From the NCBI RefSeq assembly GCF_024494575.1, contig NZ_JANHDO010000001.1:372001-436000 (forward strand): a stretch of 64,000 nt of DNA, in the 5' to 3' direction. Source of the DNA: Halorubrum salinum. Lineage in GTDB: Archaea; Halobacteriota; Halobacteria; Halobacteriales; Haloferacaceae. The position numbers and the translations under genes are program-made. The notes beneath the pieces are model-generated. The model did not search any database. It saw only the letters and a program-made list of their open reading frames with translations, and was not told where the DNA came from. Positions 41,598 through 47,209 of this stretch are shown here, in pieces (the stretch's first letter is position 1; each line of letters begins with the position of its first letter).

Positions 41598-42614
41598 TCA
41601 CTCGCGCGTCACGCGCGCTCCCCGCGTCGCCGCTTCGACGACGGACACCGTCCCCTCGACGCCCGCCTCGTCGAGGGCGCGCTCGCCCGCGTCGGCGGCC
41701 GCCGCGACGTGATCCGCGTCGGTGACGCCGTAGACGGCCGGCCCCCACGAGGACTGCCCGGCACCGAACACGCCCGCGGCCCCCGACAGCGACGCCACCA
41801 CGTCGCCGACCGGCGGGCGGTAGACCCCGCCCTGTTCGTCGGCGTACCACGCGCCGTTGAGCCGACCGATCTCCGCGACCGCGGCACCGAACCGCTCGGC
41901 GTTCCCGGTCGCGACGGCGGGGAGCACGCGCCGCGTGACGATCCCCCCGATCCGGTCGGCCAGCCCCGGTTCGGCCCGCTCGACCGCCGCGCGCATCGCG
42001 TCGTCTTCGCCGTCACCGCTCCGTCCGGGGTCGGCGTCCGGCCGCACGAGCAGGAAGCGCCAGTCGTCTGGCACCGCGTGTCTGGCCGCGACCGGCGGCA
42101 CCGTCCACTCGCCGTCGTCGGGGCGGTCGGTCGTGAACCGCGCGGTGGGATGACCCGCGTCGAGGACGAACCCACCGTCCTCGAACGTCGCGACGCCGAC
42201 GCCGGAGCGACCGCCTCGGCCGAAAAGCGGTGCGCGCTCGCGAACGCGGGCCGGCTCGCCGTGGGCGGCCGCGACGGCCGCGAGCGTCGCCGCGGCGAGT
42301 TGCGTCCCGCTCCCGAGCCCGGCGTGCCGCGGGAGCGACTCGCGGAGGACGACGCGCGCGCCGTCGACGCCGAGACAGTCGACGGCCGTGGTCGCGTGCG
42401 CACGGAGGTCGGCCGTCGTTTCCTCTCCGGCGTCGGACCGTAGCCCGTCAGCGCCGTCTGCGACCGCGACGCTCACTCCCTCGGCCGGCTCGGCGTCGAC
42501 GACGACGCGCGGCTCGCGGAGGCCTAATCCGAGAGCCCCGTATAGACGCTCGTGTGAGAGGCTGAGGTTACAGAAACCGAAGTGGATCCGGGCTCCGGCG
42601 CTTGCGCGTGCCAT
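41598..42614 (-). CDS. Beta-ribofuranosylaminobenzene 5'-phosphate synthase family (GHMP)
   Basis: GHMP-superfamily enzyme of 338 residues that in methanogens makes RFA-P from PRPP and 4-aminobenzoate, the first committed step of tetrahydromethanopterin. The GHMP ATP-site motif is L-P-R-H-A-G-L-G-S-G-T-Q at 94-105, and the N-terminal G-A-R-I-H-F-G-F-C-N-L is the family start. Haloarchaea are thought to use folate, so the pterin role here is uncertain. The start 42614 has a TATA-like CATTTAGC 25-35 bases before it. Monocistronic. Confidence 0.88.
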   Translation of the reverse strand: MARASAGARIHFGFCNLSLSHERLYGALGLGLREPRVVVDAEPAEGVSVAVADGADGLRSDAGEETTADLRAHATTAVDCLGVDGARVVLRESLPRHAGLGSGTQLAAATLAAVAAAHGEPARVRERAPLFGRGGRSGVGVATFEDGGFVLDAGHPTARFTTDRPDDGEWTVPPVAARHAVPDDWRFLLVRPDADPGRSGDGEDDAMRAAVERAEPGLADRIGGIVTRRVLPAVATGNAERFGAAVAEIGRLNGAWYADEQGGVYRPPVGDVVASLSGAAGVFGAGQSSWGPAVYGVTDADHVAAAADAGERALDEAGVEGTVSVVEAATRGARVTRE

Positions 42615-42751: not shown

Positions 42752-43087
42752 TCACGCGTCGGCGGCCGGTCCGGTCTCTAAGTCGAACTCCCACTCCTCG
42801 TACCCGCCGGCCATGCTCGCGACGAGCACGTCCTCTTCGACGCCCTCGTAGCTCTGGATCAGCATCGCGGCCTGCTTCGACGACTGTCCGACGGGACAGG
42901 CACAGACCACGTCCGTGCCGTCCCAGTCGATGTCGGAGACGCGCGACGGGAGGTCGCCGAGCGGGACGTTGATCGCGCCGGGAATGTGGCCCTGTTCGTA
43001 CTGCTCTGGCGAGCGCGTGTCGATGACGCGGACCTCGCCCGCCTGAACGCGCTCGTTGACTTCGTCGGGGGTGAGCTCTTCGACCAT
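42752..43087 (-). CDS. Rhodanese-domain sulfurtransferase
   Basis: A single rhodanese domain of 111 residues. Catalytic loop C64-P-V-G-Q-S-S70, after V-V-C-A-C, with the usual E-E-L-T-P-D-E-V-N-E-R and R-V-I-D-T-R-S-P-E-Q-Y near the N-terminus. It carries sulfur as a Cys persulfide. It begins two bases after the stop of tusA, so the two are co-transcribed. In this neighbourhood (TusA, cysteine synthase, SAMP, UbaA) a role in providing sulfur for tRNA thiolation or molybdopterin is likely; that is an inference. Confidence 0.93.
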   Translation of the reverse strand: MVEELTPDEVNERVQAGEVRVIDTRSPEQYEQGHIPGAINVPLGDLPSRVSDIDWDGTDVVCACPVGQSSKQAAMLIQSYEGVEEDVLVASMAGGYEEWEFDLETGPAADA

Positions 43088-43089
43088 GA

Positions 43090-43389
43090 TCAGTTCTTTC
43101 GCAGGAAGATCCGGTAGCGACCGTCGCCCGATTTCCACACCTTCGCGGTGGCGTCGTCGCCGACCGCCTTCGGGACGTTCTCGGTGCTCGGCACGTGGTC
43201 CGTCTTCTGGACGAGCACGTCGCCCGGGGAGAGCCCGGCGACGGCCTTCTTCGCTTCGACCTGCGGATACGGACACACCTCGCCGGTCATGTCCTGTACC
43301 TCGGTCGCGTCTTCGAGCAGTGCCTCGGCCGTCTCGTCGTCGAGCTCGTCCGGCATCTCGACGACGTCGTCCCACGATGGTTGGCTCAT
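43090..43389 (-). CDS. tusA: TusA family sulfur carrier
   Basis: A TusA/SirA-type 99-residue protein. The sulfur-accepting Cys is C39 in G-E-V-C-P-Y-P-Q-V-E-A, the CPxP motif. The fold is the small alpha/beta two-layer of the family, with K-K-A-V-A-G-L-S-P-G-D-V-L-V following as standard. An acidic N-terminal extension (about 30 residues) is unusual for bacterial members but common in haloarchaea. It passes persulfide sulfur between donors and acceptors, here most likely with the rhodanese encoded directly downstream. Confidence 0.93.
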   Translation of the reverse strand: MSQPSWDDVVEMPDELDDETAEALLEDATEVQDMTGEVCPYPQVEAKKAVAGLSPGDVLVQKTDHVPSTENVPKAVGDDATAKVWKSGDGRYRIFLRKN

Positions 43390-43541: not shown

Positions 43542-44561
43542 ATGAGCGATCACGCCGTCGACGAGTCGACGATCTTCGAGACGCCCCTCGTCGAGGTCGA
43601 CCTCGGACTGCGGTCCGACGCGACCGTGTACGCGAAAGTCGAGTGGTTCAACCTCTACGCCGCCCCGCACGGCGGCGGATCGGTCAAATCGCGGATCGCG
43701 AAGGGAATGCTAGACGGTGCGGAGGCGCGCGGCGACCTCGAACCGGGCGACACCGTGATAGAGCCCACCTCGGGCAACACCGGCAGCGAGATCGCCCGGC
43801 TCGCGAGCGCCCGCGGCTACGACGTCGAGATCGTCATGCCCGACAACGCCGCTGGCGGGAAGGTCGAGGCCGTCCGCGACGCGGGCGCGGAGATACACTT
43901 CGTCGACGCCGACCTCGGCTACGACGCGGTGATCGAGCGCGCAGAGGAGCTAATCGCGGCCGACCCGGACGCCTACTACCGGCCGAACCAGTACGAGAAC
44001 CCGGACAACCCCGGAACCCACGAGCGGACGACTGCACGCGAGATCCACGAGGCGACCGACGGGAAAGTGACGCACTTCGTCGCGGGCGTCGGGACGGGGG
44101 GAACGATCACGGGGACGGGCCGCGGACTGACCGAACTGACCGACGGCGGCGCGGCGATCGTCGGCTTCGAGCCGGACGAACCGCTCCACGCGATAGACGG
44201 GCTGAAATACCTGAAGACGGGCGACCACTACCACCCCGACACGTACGACGAGTCCGTGCTCGACCGACGGGAGTACGTCTCTACAGGCGACGCCTACGAC
44301 CGGGCGCGGGCGCTCCGCGACCGGTATCAGGACGAGGCGATCCCGATCGCCGACCCCGGACAACACGACGCCGAGACAGTCCGCGAGCACCTCCGCGTCG
44401 GCGGCCAGTTCGTCGTGGGCACCTCCGCCGGTGCGGGCGCGGCCGCCGTGGCCGCGCTCGACGAGGCGGGCGATCTCGCGGACGACGACGTGGTCGTGTT
44501 CATGCTGTGCGACCGCGGGGACAAGTACGCCGACATCCCGCTGTGGGAGGAGTACCTGTAG
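43542..44561 (+). CDS. PLP-dependent cysteine synthase family protein
   Basis: A 339-residue fold-type II enzyme that makes cysteine from O-acetyl- or O-phosphoserine and sulfide, or acts as a cystathionine beta-synthase relative. PLP Lys is K49 in G-G-G-S-V-K-S-R, the phosphate loop is P-T-S-G-N-T-G, and the Gly-rich V-A-G-V-G-T-G-G-T-I-T-G holds PLP. Unusual: the residue after the PLP Lys is Ser, where most CysK have Asp (SVKDR). No ACT/CBS domain follows. It lies between tusA and the SAMP gene, so it belongs to the sulfur neighbourhood, but is transcribed in the opposite direction. A frame open from 43056 is a shadow. Confidence 0.9.
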   Translation: MSDHAVDESTIFETPLVEVDLGLRSDATVYAKVEWFNLYAAPHGGGSVKSRIAKGMLDGAEARGDLEPGDTVIEPTSGNTGSEIARLASARGYDVEIVMPDNAAGGKVEAVRDAGAEIHFVDADLGYDAVIERAEELIAADPDAYYRPNQYENPDNPGTHERTTAREIHEATDGKVTHFVAGVGTGGTITGTGRGLTELTDGGAAIVGFEPDEPLHAIDGLKYLKTGDHYHPDTYDESVLDRREYVSTGDAYDRARALRDRYQDEAIPIADPGQHDAETVREHLRVGGQFVVGTSAGAGAAAVAALDEAGDLADDDVVVFMLCDRGDKYADIPLWEEYL

Positions 44562-44594: not shown

Positions 44595-44858
44595 CTACCG
44601 ACCGCCGCTGGCCGCGGGGATGACGCGGACCTGCGCGTCGTCCGGGACCTCGGCGTCGAGCCCGTCGACGGGCGTGCCGTCGACGTAGACGTTGATGAAC
44701 TCCTTGATCTCGCCGTCCTCGACGACGCTGTCTCTCAGTTCCGAGCCGTGTTCGGCGGCGTGGTTGTCGAACAGGTCACCGACGGTGTCGCCGTCGACTT
44801 CGACCTCGGAGGTCGACGACCCGCCGACGAGTACGGCCGGCAGCTTGATCGTAGCCAT
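44595..44858 (-). CDS. samp1: Ubiquitin-like small archaeal modifier protein (SAMP1/MoaD-like)
   Basis: A beta-grasp protein of 87 residues, the same length as Haloferax volcanii SAMP1. It serves as sulfur carrier in molybdopterin or as a protein modifier after activation by UbaA. The sequence ends A-A-S-G-G-R; the diglycine is thus followed by an extra Arg before the TAG (44595-44597). Because E1 needs a free C-terminal Gly carboxylate, the Arg must be removed first, or the gene is for a non-conjugated role. The TATA at 44881-44890 supports a leaderless start at 44858. It converges with the cysteine synthase (33 bases) and is divergent from ubaA (228 bases). Confidence 0.9.
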   Translation of the reverse strand: MATIKLPAVLVGGSSTSEVEVDGDTVGDLFDNHAAEHGSELRDSVVEDGEIKEFINVYVDGTPVDGLDAEVPDDAQVRVIPAASGGR

Positions 44859-45086: not shown

Positions 45087-45950
45087 ATGAGCGATCTCGA
45101 TCTCGACCCGACCCAGCTTGACCGCTACTCCAGACACATCATCATGGACGACGTGGGCCCCGACGGACAGAAGGCCTTACTCGACGCGGAGGTGCTCGTG
45201 CTCGGTGCCGGCGGGCTCGGCGCGCCGATCATCCAGTACCTCGCGGCCGCAGGCGTCGGAACGCTCGGAATCGCCGACGACGACGAGGTGGAGCTGTCGA
45301 ACCTCCAGCGACAGGTGATTCACGGGAACGACGACGTGGGGCGCAAGAAGGTGGACTCCGCCGCCGACTTCGTCGCCCAGCTCAACCCCGACATCGACGT
45401 GCGAAAACACGAGCTGCGCGTCACGCCCGACAACATCGAGGAGCTGATCTCCGGATACGACTTCGTCGTCGACGGCACCGACAACTTCGCGACGCGGTAC
45501 CTCGTCAACGACGCGTGTACGCTCGCCGGGATCCCCTTCTCGCACGGCTCCATCTTCAAGTTCGAGGGGCAGGTGACGACGTTCGCGGGAGACGACGACT
45601 CCCCGTGTTACCGCTGTCTGTTCCCCGAGGCACCGCCCGCCGGGATGGTCCCGAACTGTGCGACCGCCGGCGTGCTCGGCGTGCTCCCCGGCACCGTCGG
45701 CTGTCTGCAGGCCACGGAGACGGTCAAACACGTCATCGGCGAGGGCGAGAGCCTCGACGGCTCCATGCTCTTCTTCGACGCGCTCGACATGGAGTTCGAC
45801 AAAGTCGAGATCCCCAAGCGCGACGACTGCCCCGTCTGCGGCGACGACCCCGCCATCGAGTCGGTCCACGACGTGGAGTACACCGCCTCCTGTGCGATCG
45901 ACGTCGGCGGCGACGACGAGTCCGAACCCGAGATCGAAGCGACCGACTGA
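45087..45950 (+). CDS. ubaA: E1-like activating enzyme UbaA (HesA/MoeB/ThiF)
   Basis: Adenylates the C-terminal Gly of SAMP proteins and drives both sampylation and sulfur transfer for tRNA thiolation and molybdopterin. Residues 35-47 hold the nucleotide loop L-V-L-G40-A-G-G-L-G-A-P, followed by the ATP-contact segment N-L-Q-R-Q-V. The zinc site is C174-x2-C177 and C248-x2-C251. The active-site Cys is C191 in M-V-P-N-C-A-T-A-G-V. The 287 residues match the haloarchaeal family; no rhodanese domain is fused, although a separate rhodanese lies 2 kb away. It is flanked by the SAMP and JAMM genes. Confidence 0.95.
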   Translation: MSDLDLDPTQLDRYSRHIIMDDVGPDGQKALLDAEVLVLGAGGLGAPIIQYLAAAGVGTLGIADDDEVELSNLQRQVIHGNDDVGRKKVDSAADFVAQLNPDIDVRKHELRVTPDNIEELISGYDFVVDGTDNFATRYLVNDACTLAGIPFSHGSIFKFEGQVTTFAGDDDSPCYRCLFPEAPPAGMVPNCATAGVLGVLPGTVGCLQATETVKHVIGEGESLDGSMLFFDALDMEFDKVEIPKRDDCPVCGDDPAIESVHDVEYTASCAIDVGGDDESEPEIEATD

Positions 45951-46287: not shown

Positions 46288-46716
46288 TTACCGCTCGCTC
46301 CGCACCGCGACCGTCTCCTGTTCGAATCCCGCGTCGTCGCCGCGCCAGCGCCACGATCCGACGAACGGGTAGCCGTCGAGCGCGCAGATGACGTACGAGT
46401 GGTCGGGCCACGTCGCCCGCGCCGCGTCCGTCTCGCTCGGGTGCGTCGGCCCGGTCGGGTGCGAGTGGTAGAAGCCGACCAGGTCGCGGCCGTCGCCTTC
46501 GACCGCTTCGATCAGTTCGAACTGCTCTTCGGGATCGATGAGGTAGCGGATCTCCGGCGTCTCCGCGACGTTCTCCGCCTCGTAGGTTTCGGTGACGACG
46601 CTCGGTTCGTCGCCGTCGCCGCGCGTGCCGGCGAGCACGCCGCAGATCTCGGCTTCCCCGCCGCTGTAGGCGTGATACACGATGTCGTCGTAGACCGCAC
46701 GCGAGAGTTCGATCAT
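46288..46716 (-). CDS. jamm1: JAMM/MPN+ metalloprotease (desampylase)
   Basis: Zinc isopeptidase like Haloferax HvJAMM1, which removes SAMP from target proteins and cuts SAMP fusions. The protein is 142 residues. JAMM ligands: E23 in E-A-E-I-C-G, H84-S-H86-P, and S94-x2-D97 in H-S-H-P-T-G-P-T-H-P-S-E-T-D. All are intact. It belongs with the SAMP and UbaA genes just upstream, so the locus has modifier, activator and deconjugase; in H. volcanii these are scattered, as I recall. Stop is TAA at 46288. Confidence 0.92.
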   Translation of the reverse strand: MIELSRAVYDDIVYHAYSGGEAEICGVLAGTRGDGDEPSVVTETYEAENVAETPEIRYLIDPEEQFELIEAVEGDGRDLVGFYHSHPTGPTHPSETDAARATWPDHSYVICALDGYPFVGSWRWRGDDAGFEQETVAVRSER

Positions 46717-46810: not shown

Positions 46811-47209
46811 CTAGCTCGACGCCTGCGGCGGCTCGGCCTGGTCGTACTTCTCTTCGAACTCGCGGATGAGCTGGCCCATCTTCGCGTACCAGTCGTTGAG
46901 CATCCGCTGCATCTCGTTCGTGATCTTCTCGGGATCGGTCGGCGAGTAGACGTGGTAGTAGCCGCCCTGGTCGTAGTTGATCTGCTCTTTCGTGATGAAC
47001 CCGGTCTGTAAGAGCCGCTGGACCGAGCGGTAGGCGGTCGAACGCTCGCGGTCGACCGCCTCGGCGACGGCGTCGATCGTCATGGGTTCCTCGCTCTCGA
47101 CGAGGACGGAGAAACACTCCCGGTCGAGCGGTTTGAGCCCGTGAAAACACTCCAAGAGCCCCTCACACTGCATGTCGCTCTGGAGCTGTTCGGACAGAGA
47201 GTCTGGCAT
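46811..47209 (-). CDS. TrmB-type winged-helix regulator with N-terminal Cys pair (OxsR-like?)
   Basis: A 132-residue transcription regulator. Winged helix at about residues 28-85 (C-F-S-V-L-V-E-S-E-E-P-M-T-I-D-A-V-A-E-A-V-D-R-E-R-S-T-A-Y-R), then a helical C-terminal dimerisation segment. The N-terminus has C15 and C21 in M-Q-C-E-G-L-L-E-C-F. From memory this resembles OxsR, a thiol-based oxidative stress regulator of Haloferax volcanii in the TrmB family, but I cannot confirm. It lies 94 bases past the start of the JAMM gene, on the same strand, and 171 bases from a USP gene. Confidence 0.85.
   Translation of the reverse strand: MPDSLSEQLQSDMQCEGLLECFHGLKPLDRECFSVLVESEEPMTIDAVAEAVDRERSTAYRSVQRLLQTGFITKEQINYDQGGYYHVYSPTDPEKITNEMQRMLNDWYAKMGQLIREFEEKYDQAEPPQASS

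Follow-up and report, generated by a model that had tools for sequence, protein, structure and literature searches.

A Gly-Gly-Arg-ending Ubl of Halorubrum salinum as a candidate CysO-like sulfur carrier, encoded with a JAMM protease, a second E1 and a CysM-like enzyme

What does a residue placed after the Gly-Gly of a Ubl mean, and which pathway does a Ubl with such a cap serve? The question is raised by a gene of Halorubrum salinum lying in the window, by which we mean the whole stretch of 64,000 nucleotides analysed here (contig 1, 372001-436000, of a 2.73-Mb genome that is 99.86% complete). The encoded protein, MATIKLPAVLVGG...PAASGGR, closes with the stretch VRVIPAASGGR. The initial annotation had stated that the stop codon follows Ser-Gly-Gly-Arg, and the open reading frame confirms this on the minus strand: 87 codons run from the ATG at 44858 to the TAG stop at 44595-44597, with the Gly-Gly codons at 44601-44606. 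A plus-strand reading of 44595-44858 was rejected, as the frame 1 translation is unrelated and has no initial Met. The gene belongs to a set of six (JAMM, UbaA2, Ubl, CysM-like enzyme, TusA and rhodanese), whose features are as follows.

44595..44858 (-): putative CysO-like Ubl sulfur carrier, 87 aa, ending PAASGGR; Pfam ThiS above cut-off
44598..44600 (-): Arg cap codon CGG after Gly-Gly; Arg or Gln in 28/28 genus copies
45087..45950 (+): UbaA2, second E1-like adenylyltransferase; NCBIfam SAMP-activating E1, 476 bits (cut-off 450)
43542..44561 (+): CysM-like PLP cysteine synthase; Pfam PALP above cut-off, NCBIfam cysKM best match but below cut-off
46288..46716 (-): JAMM metalloprotease of the desampylase type, likely cap remover; NCBIfam desamp_Halo, 153.4 bits (cut-off 130)
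43090..43389 (-): TusA-like sulfurtransferase with CPxP motif; Pfam TusA above cut-off
42752..43087 (-): stand-alone rhodanese domain protein; Pfam Rhodanese above cut-off

By searching 52 genomes of the genus, we found the Ubl gene in 27 of them, H. salinum included, with a total of 28 full-length copies. All 28 carry exactly one residue past Gly-Gly, which is Arg in 26 copies and Gln in 2, so that a sequencing error in the last codon is ruled out as the origin of the Arg tail. Among these copies, third-base variation is seen in the Arg codon, in the Gly codon before it and in the stop codon. On a tree of the flanking DNA, the tail codon underwent around eight changes, six synonymous and two between Arg and Gln, that is 0, 2 and 6 changes at codon positions 1, 2 and 3 and two amino-acid changes; the remaining 86 Ubl codons have on average 0.84 changes at positions 1 and 2 together, 3.63 at position 3 and 1.06 amino-acid changes. 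Finding at least six synonymous changes among eight has a P of 0.08 or 0.02 under two simple neutral guesses. We regard this synonymous excess as modest evidence of constraint, and the constant tail length in 28/28 copies as the stronger point. The tail residue resembles ordinary coding sequence and not random filler, although its amino-acid rate is not below that of the protein body.

We then compared wider relatives at the same position, as the initial annotation had proposed. A profile built from 11 Ubls (A1), in which Gly-Gly is invariant and followed by a cap, matched in 35 of 391 genomes of the class and in 8 of 86 genera. A cap is present in 40 of the 42 distinct relatives ending PAASGG (the window's own copy not counted), the other two being bare: the tail is R in 30 and Q in 2, and RR, AR, SR, QF, CSP, TRA, TGQ and G were found once each. 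The two bare Ubls (L084 and L085), together with those tailed by G and TGQ, belong to the distant families f5 and f11, and all four adjoin a JAMM gene. Since the two uncapped Ubls have this neighbour, cap removal cannot be the sole reason for the JAMM there. Nearly all members of the nearer group thus carry the Ubl cap, whereas more distant ones may carry or lack it.

Caps are also frequent on the other Ubls of the genus. In H. salinum itself, SAMP1 (G000:C1:922023-922292, plus strand) ends PPVSGGCAD, with CAD past Gly-Gly, and a SAMP3-like protein (G000:C3:272357-272623, minus strand) ends PPVAGGV, with V past Gly-Gly. In the 31 of 52 genus genomes covered by our SAMP1 tally, SAMP1 is capped in 20 loci, often by a four-residue tail with Arg in last place, whereas at 11 loci it is bare. 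The SAMP3-like protein is extended in 21/21 loci read (20 plus the one of H. salinum), in 15 of them by one to three residues and in 6 by a long linker with a further stretch. Taking the cap for an oddity, as the initial annotation did, is therefore not supported within this genus. Capped SAMP1 was found in 13 of 14 genomes with the CysO-like Ubl and in 7 of 17 others (Fisher P 0.007), a comparison in which kinship is uncontrolled and from which we draw no inference. The six SAMP3-like Ubls in which a linker plus another stretch is fused on past Gly-Gly (GWVRREVAYRGISRRLAAHYL and similar) are L128, L132, L133, L136, L137 and L138; in the one partial protein scanned, the only Pfam match was to ThiS. 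A ThiS-like protein of H. salinum (L010, G000:C1:656897-657214, minus strand) ends FMFCC and fits arCOG00539, which the available text of PMC2948915 presents as a haloarchaeal beta-grasp family with a Cys-Cys end.

To which family does the capped Ubl belong? With 31.9 bits against Pfam ThiS (cut-off 22.5) and a C-terminal Gly-Gly, it falls in the ThiS/MoaD beta-grasp superfamily. It scores below the NCBIfam cut-offs for SAMP1 (47.9 vs 60 bits) and for archaeal MoaD (moaD_arch, 32.7 vs 49.5 bits), and the SAMP1 cut-off is missed by all 28 genus copies as well. Against solved structures, the A1 profile matched first 4n6e_B (1.8e-9), which we take to be Amycolatopsis CysO, then the small chain of 3dwg (7.6e-5), presumably CysO too, then 2m19 (1.5e-4), which we assume to be SAMP3, and then SAMP1 (6.7e-4). 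In a Ubl tree of 37 rows, SAMP1 and SAMP3 are separated from CysO, the Ubl and its distant relatives by a 99/96 branch, to be read with a long-branch warning and with the shortness of the rows in mind. Profile order and tree together favour a grouping of the Ubl with actinobacterial CysO and not with SAMP1/SAMP3. The plain SAMP identity given in the initial annotation is accordingly not favoured.

The Ubl gene is divergent from UbaA2 (228-bp gap) and convergent with the CysM-like gene (33-bp gap). Ubl, E1, JAMM and PLP cysteine synthase are encoded together, matching the gene content of a CysO-type pathway. All six genes were found in the locus DNA of 21 of the 27 named genus loci, UbaA2 with CysM in 25/27 and JAMM in 23/27, some of the misses being contig ends. 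In four f4 genomes the set is split, with Ubl, UbaA2 and JAMM at one site and CysM, TusA and rhodanese at another, both of which are kept. The TusA CPxP motif is conserved in 24/24 loci, a candidate rhodanese active-site Cys loop is found in 25/25, and the NCATAG-type cysteine of UbaA is kept in 31/32. Two further genes flank the set. A Sta1/TrmB-like winged-helix regulator gene (window 46811-47209, minus strand) lies directly upstream of JAMM on the same strand, and its product is a possible regulator of the six genes; beyond the rhodanese gene lies a gene of the beta-ribofuranosylaminobenzene 5'-phosphate synthase family (window 41598-42614, minus strand; above the TIGR00144 cut-off).

All 27 genus Ubl genomes carry two kinds of UbaA, a general one with 61-68% identity to the window UbaA2 and a cluster copy with 91-97% (100% for the window's own). 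Whole UbaA2 was found in 27/27 genus Ubl genomes vs 0/25 of the other genus genomes. Outside the genus, UbaA2 (81-89%) is present in 8/8 Ubl genomes of families f1 and f4, and a single UbaA in the four f5/f11 Ubl genomes and in four genomes with CysM only. Pfam gave no rhodanese match in UbaA2, which thus differs from the MoeZR type with its fused rhodanese. One genome without the Ubl has a 74-residue UbaA2 remnant beside JAMM (G011:C106:18020-18814), which looks like a decayed cluster.

The CysM-like enzyme also co-occurs with the Ubl. Orthologues with 83-88% identity (100% for H. salinum) occur in 26 of the 27 genus Ubl genomes and in none of the 25 others; in the one genome missing it (G020, named copy L045) the contig ends inside the gene, and the copies of G032 and G042 are broken by frame changes. 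Over the 391 genomes of the class, CysM at 57% identity or more is found in 34/35 Ubl genomes vs 4/356 others, counts that kinship inflates. Of the 12 Ubl genomes outside the genus, 9 encode the enzyme at a distance of more than 5 kb or on a separate contig. Its link with the Ubl is thus not mere adjacency, and such recurrent pairing without linkage speaks for a common pathway. On the other hand, CysM at 58-73% is present in four genomes without Ubl or UbaA2, and most genomes of a CysM clade at 47-55% have no CysO-like Ubl; the enzyme may therefore use free sulfide or another carrier. At one locus (L140, G085), CysM, JAMM, TusA and rhodanese stand together in a genome in which neither the Ubl nor a second UbaA was found. 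At five loci (L145, L146, L149, L155 and L158), in genomes without a Ubl match, a CysM-like gene (51-53%) has a general-type UbaA (66-69%) no more than about 3 kb away, hinting that the link between E1 and PLP enzyme is older than the dedicated carrier. Another PALP match of the same superfamily was found in 50 of the 52 genus genomes, H. salinum included, so that cysteine synthesis as such may not depend on the set. None of the 52 reached the cut-off of the cysE model, which is weak in this genus.

We predicted the structure of the CysM-like enzyme with AlphaFold from a 30-row alignment (pLDDT 93.7, pTM 0.92); nine near copies gave a pLDDT of 65.5. The model matches cysteine synthases and their relatives over almost the full length: beta-cyanoalanine synthase with Z 39.5 (rmsd 2.0, 296 aligned), OASS-B with Z 38.8 (rmsd 1.8, 292 aligned), human CBS with Z 38.4 (rmsd 2.2, 295 aligned) and mycobacterial CysM (3dki) with Z 38.0 (rmsd 2.3, 296 aligned), the last at rank 39 among the best 50, with near-equal OASS and CBS rows. 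Mycobacterial CysM was not among the best 50 Foldseek matches of the model, nor was Rv1336 among the best 60 by sequence. The predicted fold is thus that of cysteine synthase and CBS, and the fold searches do not tell OASS, the O-phosphoserine enzyme and CBS apart. The motifs Ser-X-Lys, SGNT and G-GGT, which have roles in enzymes of this kind, are conserved.

How could the cap be removed? The JAMM gene lies 1429 bp beyond the Ubl, in agreement with the 1.4 kb noted earlier. Its product carries both HxHx7SxxD and ExCG and passes the desampylase model, as an archaeal desampylase JAMM1 does, and the HxHx7SxxD metal motif is found in 29/29 loci (28 with Ser or Gly between the histidines, and L075 with His-Thr-His). 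JAMM is present in 51 of the 52 genus genomes. H. salinum has only one JAMM of the desampylase type at E below 1e-8, which would therefore serve all its Ubls. E1 chemistry requires a free Gly carboxylate. The same is described for CysO in the available part of PMC3227635, so that the earlier claim that Arg must come off before adenylation is upheld. According to the accessible sections of the respective reports, a linear SAMP1-MoaE fusion is cleaved by the Haloferax JAMM precisely behind Gly-Gly, both in vitro and in vivo (PMC4443979), the Caldiarchaeum JAMM cuts SAMP precursors (PMC6043591), and bacteria are known to have capped sulfur carriers that are encoded beside JAMM genes and trimmed by proteases, QbsD for instance (PMC6006322). 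Because of these precedents, the JAMM is likely, by analogy, to be the agent that removes the Ubl cap, as the initial annotation had suggested. With one residue past Gly-Gly and a JAMM gene nearby, the Ubl has the features of a capped carrier with JAMM. The choice set up earlier between a trimmed protein and a pure sulfur carrier dissolves, since a bare Gly-Gly is required of a sulfur carrier as well, and carriers that are capped and trimmed are known (PMC6006322, available text). What stands of the earlier interpretation is the idea of processing, and what falls is the SAMP label, the either/or and the oddity; the context of cysteine synthase, second E1, TusA and rhodanese was absent from it.

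We propose, with a probability of about 0.6, that the Ubl carries sulfur for cysteine synthesis in the manner of CysO, and that it is produced as a precursor with a one-residue cap, which the JAMM trims. This reading builds on the conserved cap, the set of six genes, the co-occurrence of the Ubl with UbaA2 and with CysM, the intact catalytic motifs and the predicted enzyme fold. The JAMM would remove the Arg cap, and UbaA2, an E1 kept for this carrier, would adenylate the exposed Gly. Persulfide sulfur brought by TusA and rhodanese would then convert the Ubl to a thiocarboxylate, which the CysM-like PLP enzyme would use to form cysteine, probably from activated serine, as a Ubl-Cys adduct. Like Mec+ in Mycobacterium, the JAMM would also cleave Ubl-Cys.

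Other readings of the same genes have to be weighed. The Ubl could be a capped sulfur carrier whose PLP enzyme makes a different beta-substituted alanine, not cysteine. Among the matches of the enzyme model, beta-cyanoalanine synthase, S-methylcysteine synthase, OASS and CBS score almost alike, H. salinum has a further PALP protein of the same superfamily, and the spread of the Ubl is patchy (27/52 genus genomes), all of which would suit such a product. We nevertheless hold it to be unlikely, given that the gene set equals that of bacterial carrier-dependent cysteine synthase operons (type 4c in the available text of PMC1779556) and that no extra tailoring genes were recognised adjoining the cluster. 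It also seems quite improbable that the Ubl is a protein modifier, a fourth SAMP that UbaA2 conjugates to lysines and that the JAMM matures and removes, the CysM-like enzyme being a modified target or a chance neighbour. Such a role agrees with the desampylase and SAMP-E1 models passed by JAMM and UbaA2, and Haloferax SAMP1 is both carrier and modifier (PMC4443979, accessible sections); against it, the Ubl misses the SAMP1 cut-off and groups with CysO, CysM co-occurs with it even when unlinked, and TusA and rhodanese suit sulfur transfer.

The last reading concerns the cap itself, which might be a harmless leftover clipped by any carboxypeptidase, with the JAMM nearby only for deconjugation. 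Tail letters do differ between genera (R, RR, AR, SR, QF, CSP, TRA), and SAMP1 is bare in 11 of the 31 genus loci. The tail length of one residue in 28/28 genus copies, the mostly synonymous changes of the tail codon and the JAMM at 23/27 loci leave this account only a small chance of being right.

Parts of the proposed pathway resemble known systems. The Wolinella succinogenes HcyS/HcyD system is said to have one operon that encodes a PLP sulfhydrylase together with a JAMM and a capped carrier, a combination like that of the window, but reportedly with homocysteine as product and a different PLP enzyme. In the bacterial QbsD case, QbsE is presumably the partner. As far as the available text of PMC6006322 goes, the QbsD system and PtmS2/PtmS1 have one or two residues past Gly-Gly, a JAMM gene nearby and a cap that is removed first, as proposed here; they serve bacterial thiocarboxylate natural products and have other cap letters, whereas the haloarchaeal partner is a cysteine-synthase-like enzyme. 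In the CysO-CysM-Mec+-MoeZR pathway of Mycobacterium tuberculosis, a Ubl carrier, an E1, a protease and a PLP cysteine synthase likewise act together (PMC3227635, in part), a combination known here from the genes, and the Ubl profile matches the CysO structures 4n6e and 3dwg first. In contrast to the Ubl of the window, mycobacterial CysO ends in a bare Gly-Gly, and the rhodanese is fused in MoeZR whereas rhodanese and TusA are separate in the Halorubrum set (same source, available part). Moreover, unlike in the mycobacterial pathway, the E1 of the set comes as a second copy in addition to the general UbaA, and the CysM-like enzyme is not specially close to mycobacterial CysM. Haloferax SAMP/UbaA/HvJAMM1 (PMC4443979) and the Caldiarchaeum SAMP precursors with CsJAMM (PMC6043591) belong to the same curated E1 and JAMM families, with a JAMM that cuts after Gly-Gly according to the accessible text of both. 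Unlike in these systems, the Ubl of the window falls on the same side of the tree as CysO and comes with an E1 of its own; also, Haloferax SAMP1 stops at Gly-Gly in the solved structure (the 3po0 match reaches the chain end) whereas the Ubl is capped. Operon type 4c (ThiS/MoaD, E1, JAB and cysteine synthase) has the same four gene kinds, but its row is bacterial, with an E1 fused to rhodanese and no haloarchaeon in the part of PMC1779556 available. For archaea, the available text of PMC2948915 states in general words that E1 and cysteine synthase genes are neighbours, and that Jab genes rarely adjoin Ubl genes. We recognised no description of a haloarchaeal CysO-like cluster among the matches listed for the literature searched, whose coverage excluded most subscription journals. 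Thus, the mycobacterial CysO pathway, bacterial capped carriers, archaeal JAMM cleavage and archaeal E1-cysteine synthase neighbours are already known piecewise, and the haloarchaeal combination of a private E1, separate rhodanese and TusA, and an Arg cap is, as far as the literature searched goes, new.

Taken jointly, our observations allow a broader view, which we offer as speculative and rather doubtful as a whole. Capping would be general in Halorubrum, with most Ubls made inactive (the CysO-like Ubl, SAMP1 in many species and SAMP3-like in all loci read). One JAMM, in many genomes without a second of its type, would gate several sulfur or modifier pathways at once and, for this carrier, act twice, by opening the cap and by releasing cysteine; the duplicated E1 would separate the cysteine branch. 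If the CysO-like reading is true, the default name SAMP for such genes would change, and haloarchaea, too, would make cysteine on a carrier protein in the mycobacterial way, using a capped precursor and an E1 reserved for it. Since capped and bare Ubls coexist within one genus, a role of JAMM as an obligate maturation enzyme, beyond that of a deconjugase, becomes directly testable in archaea.
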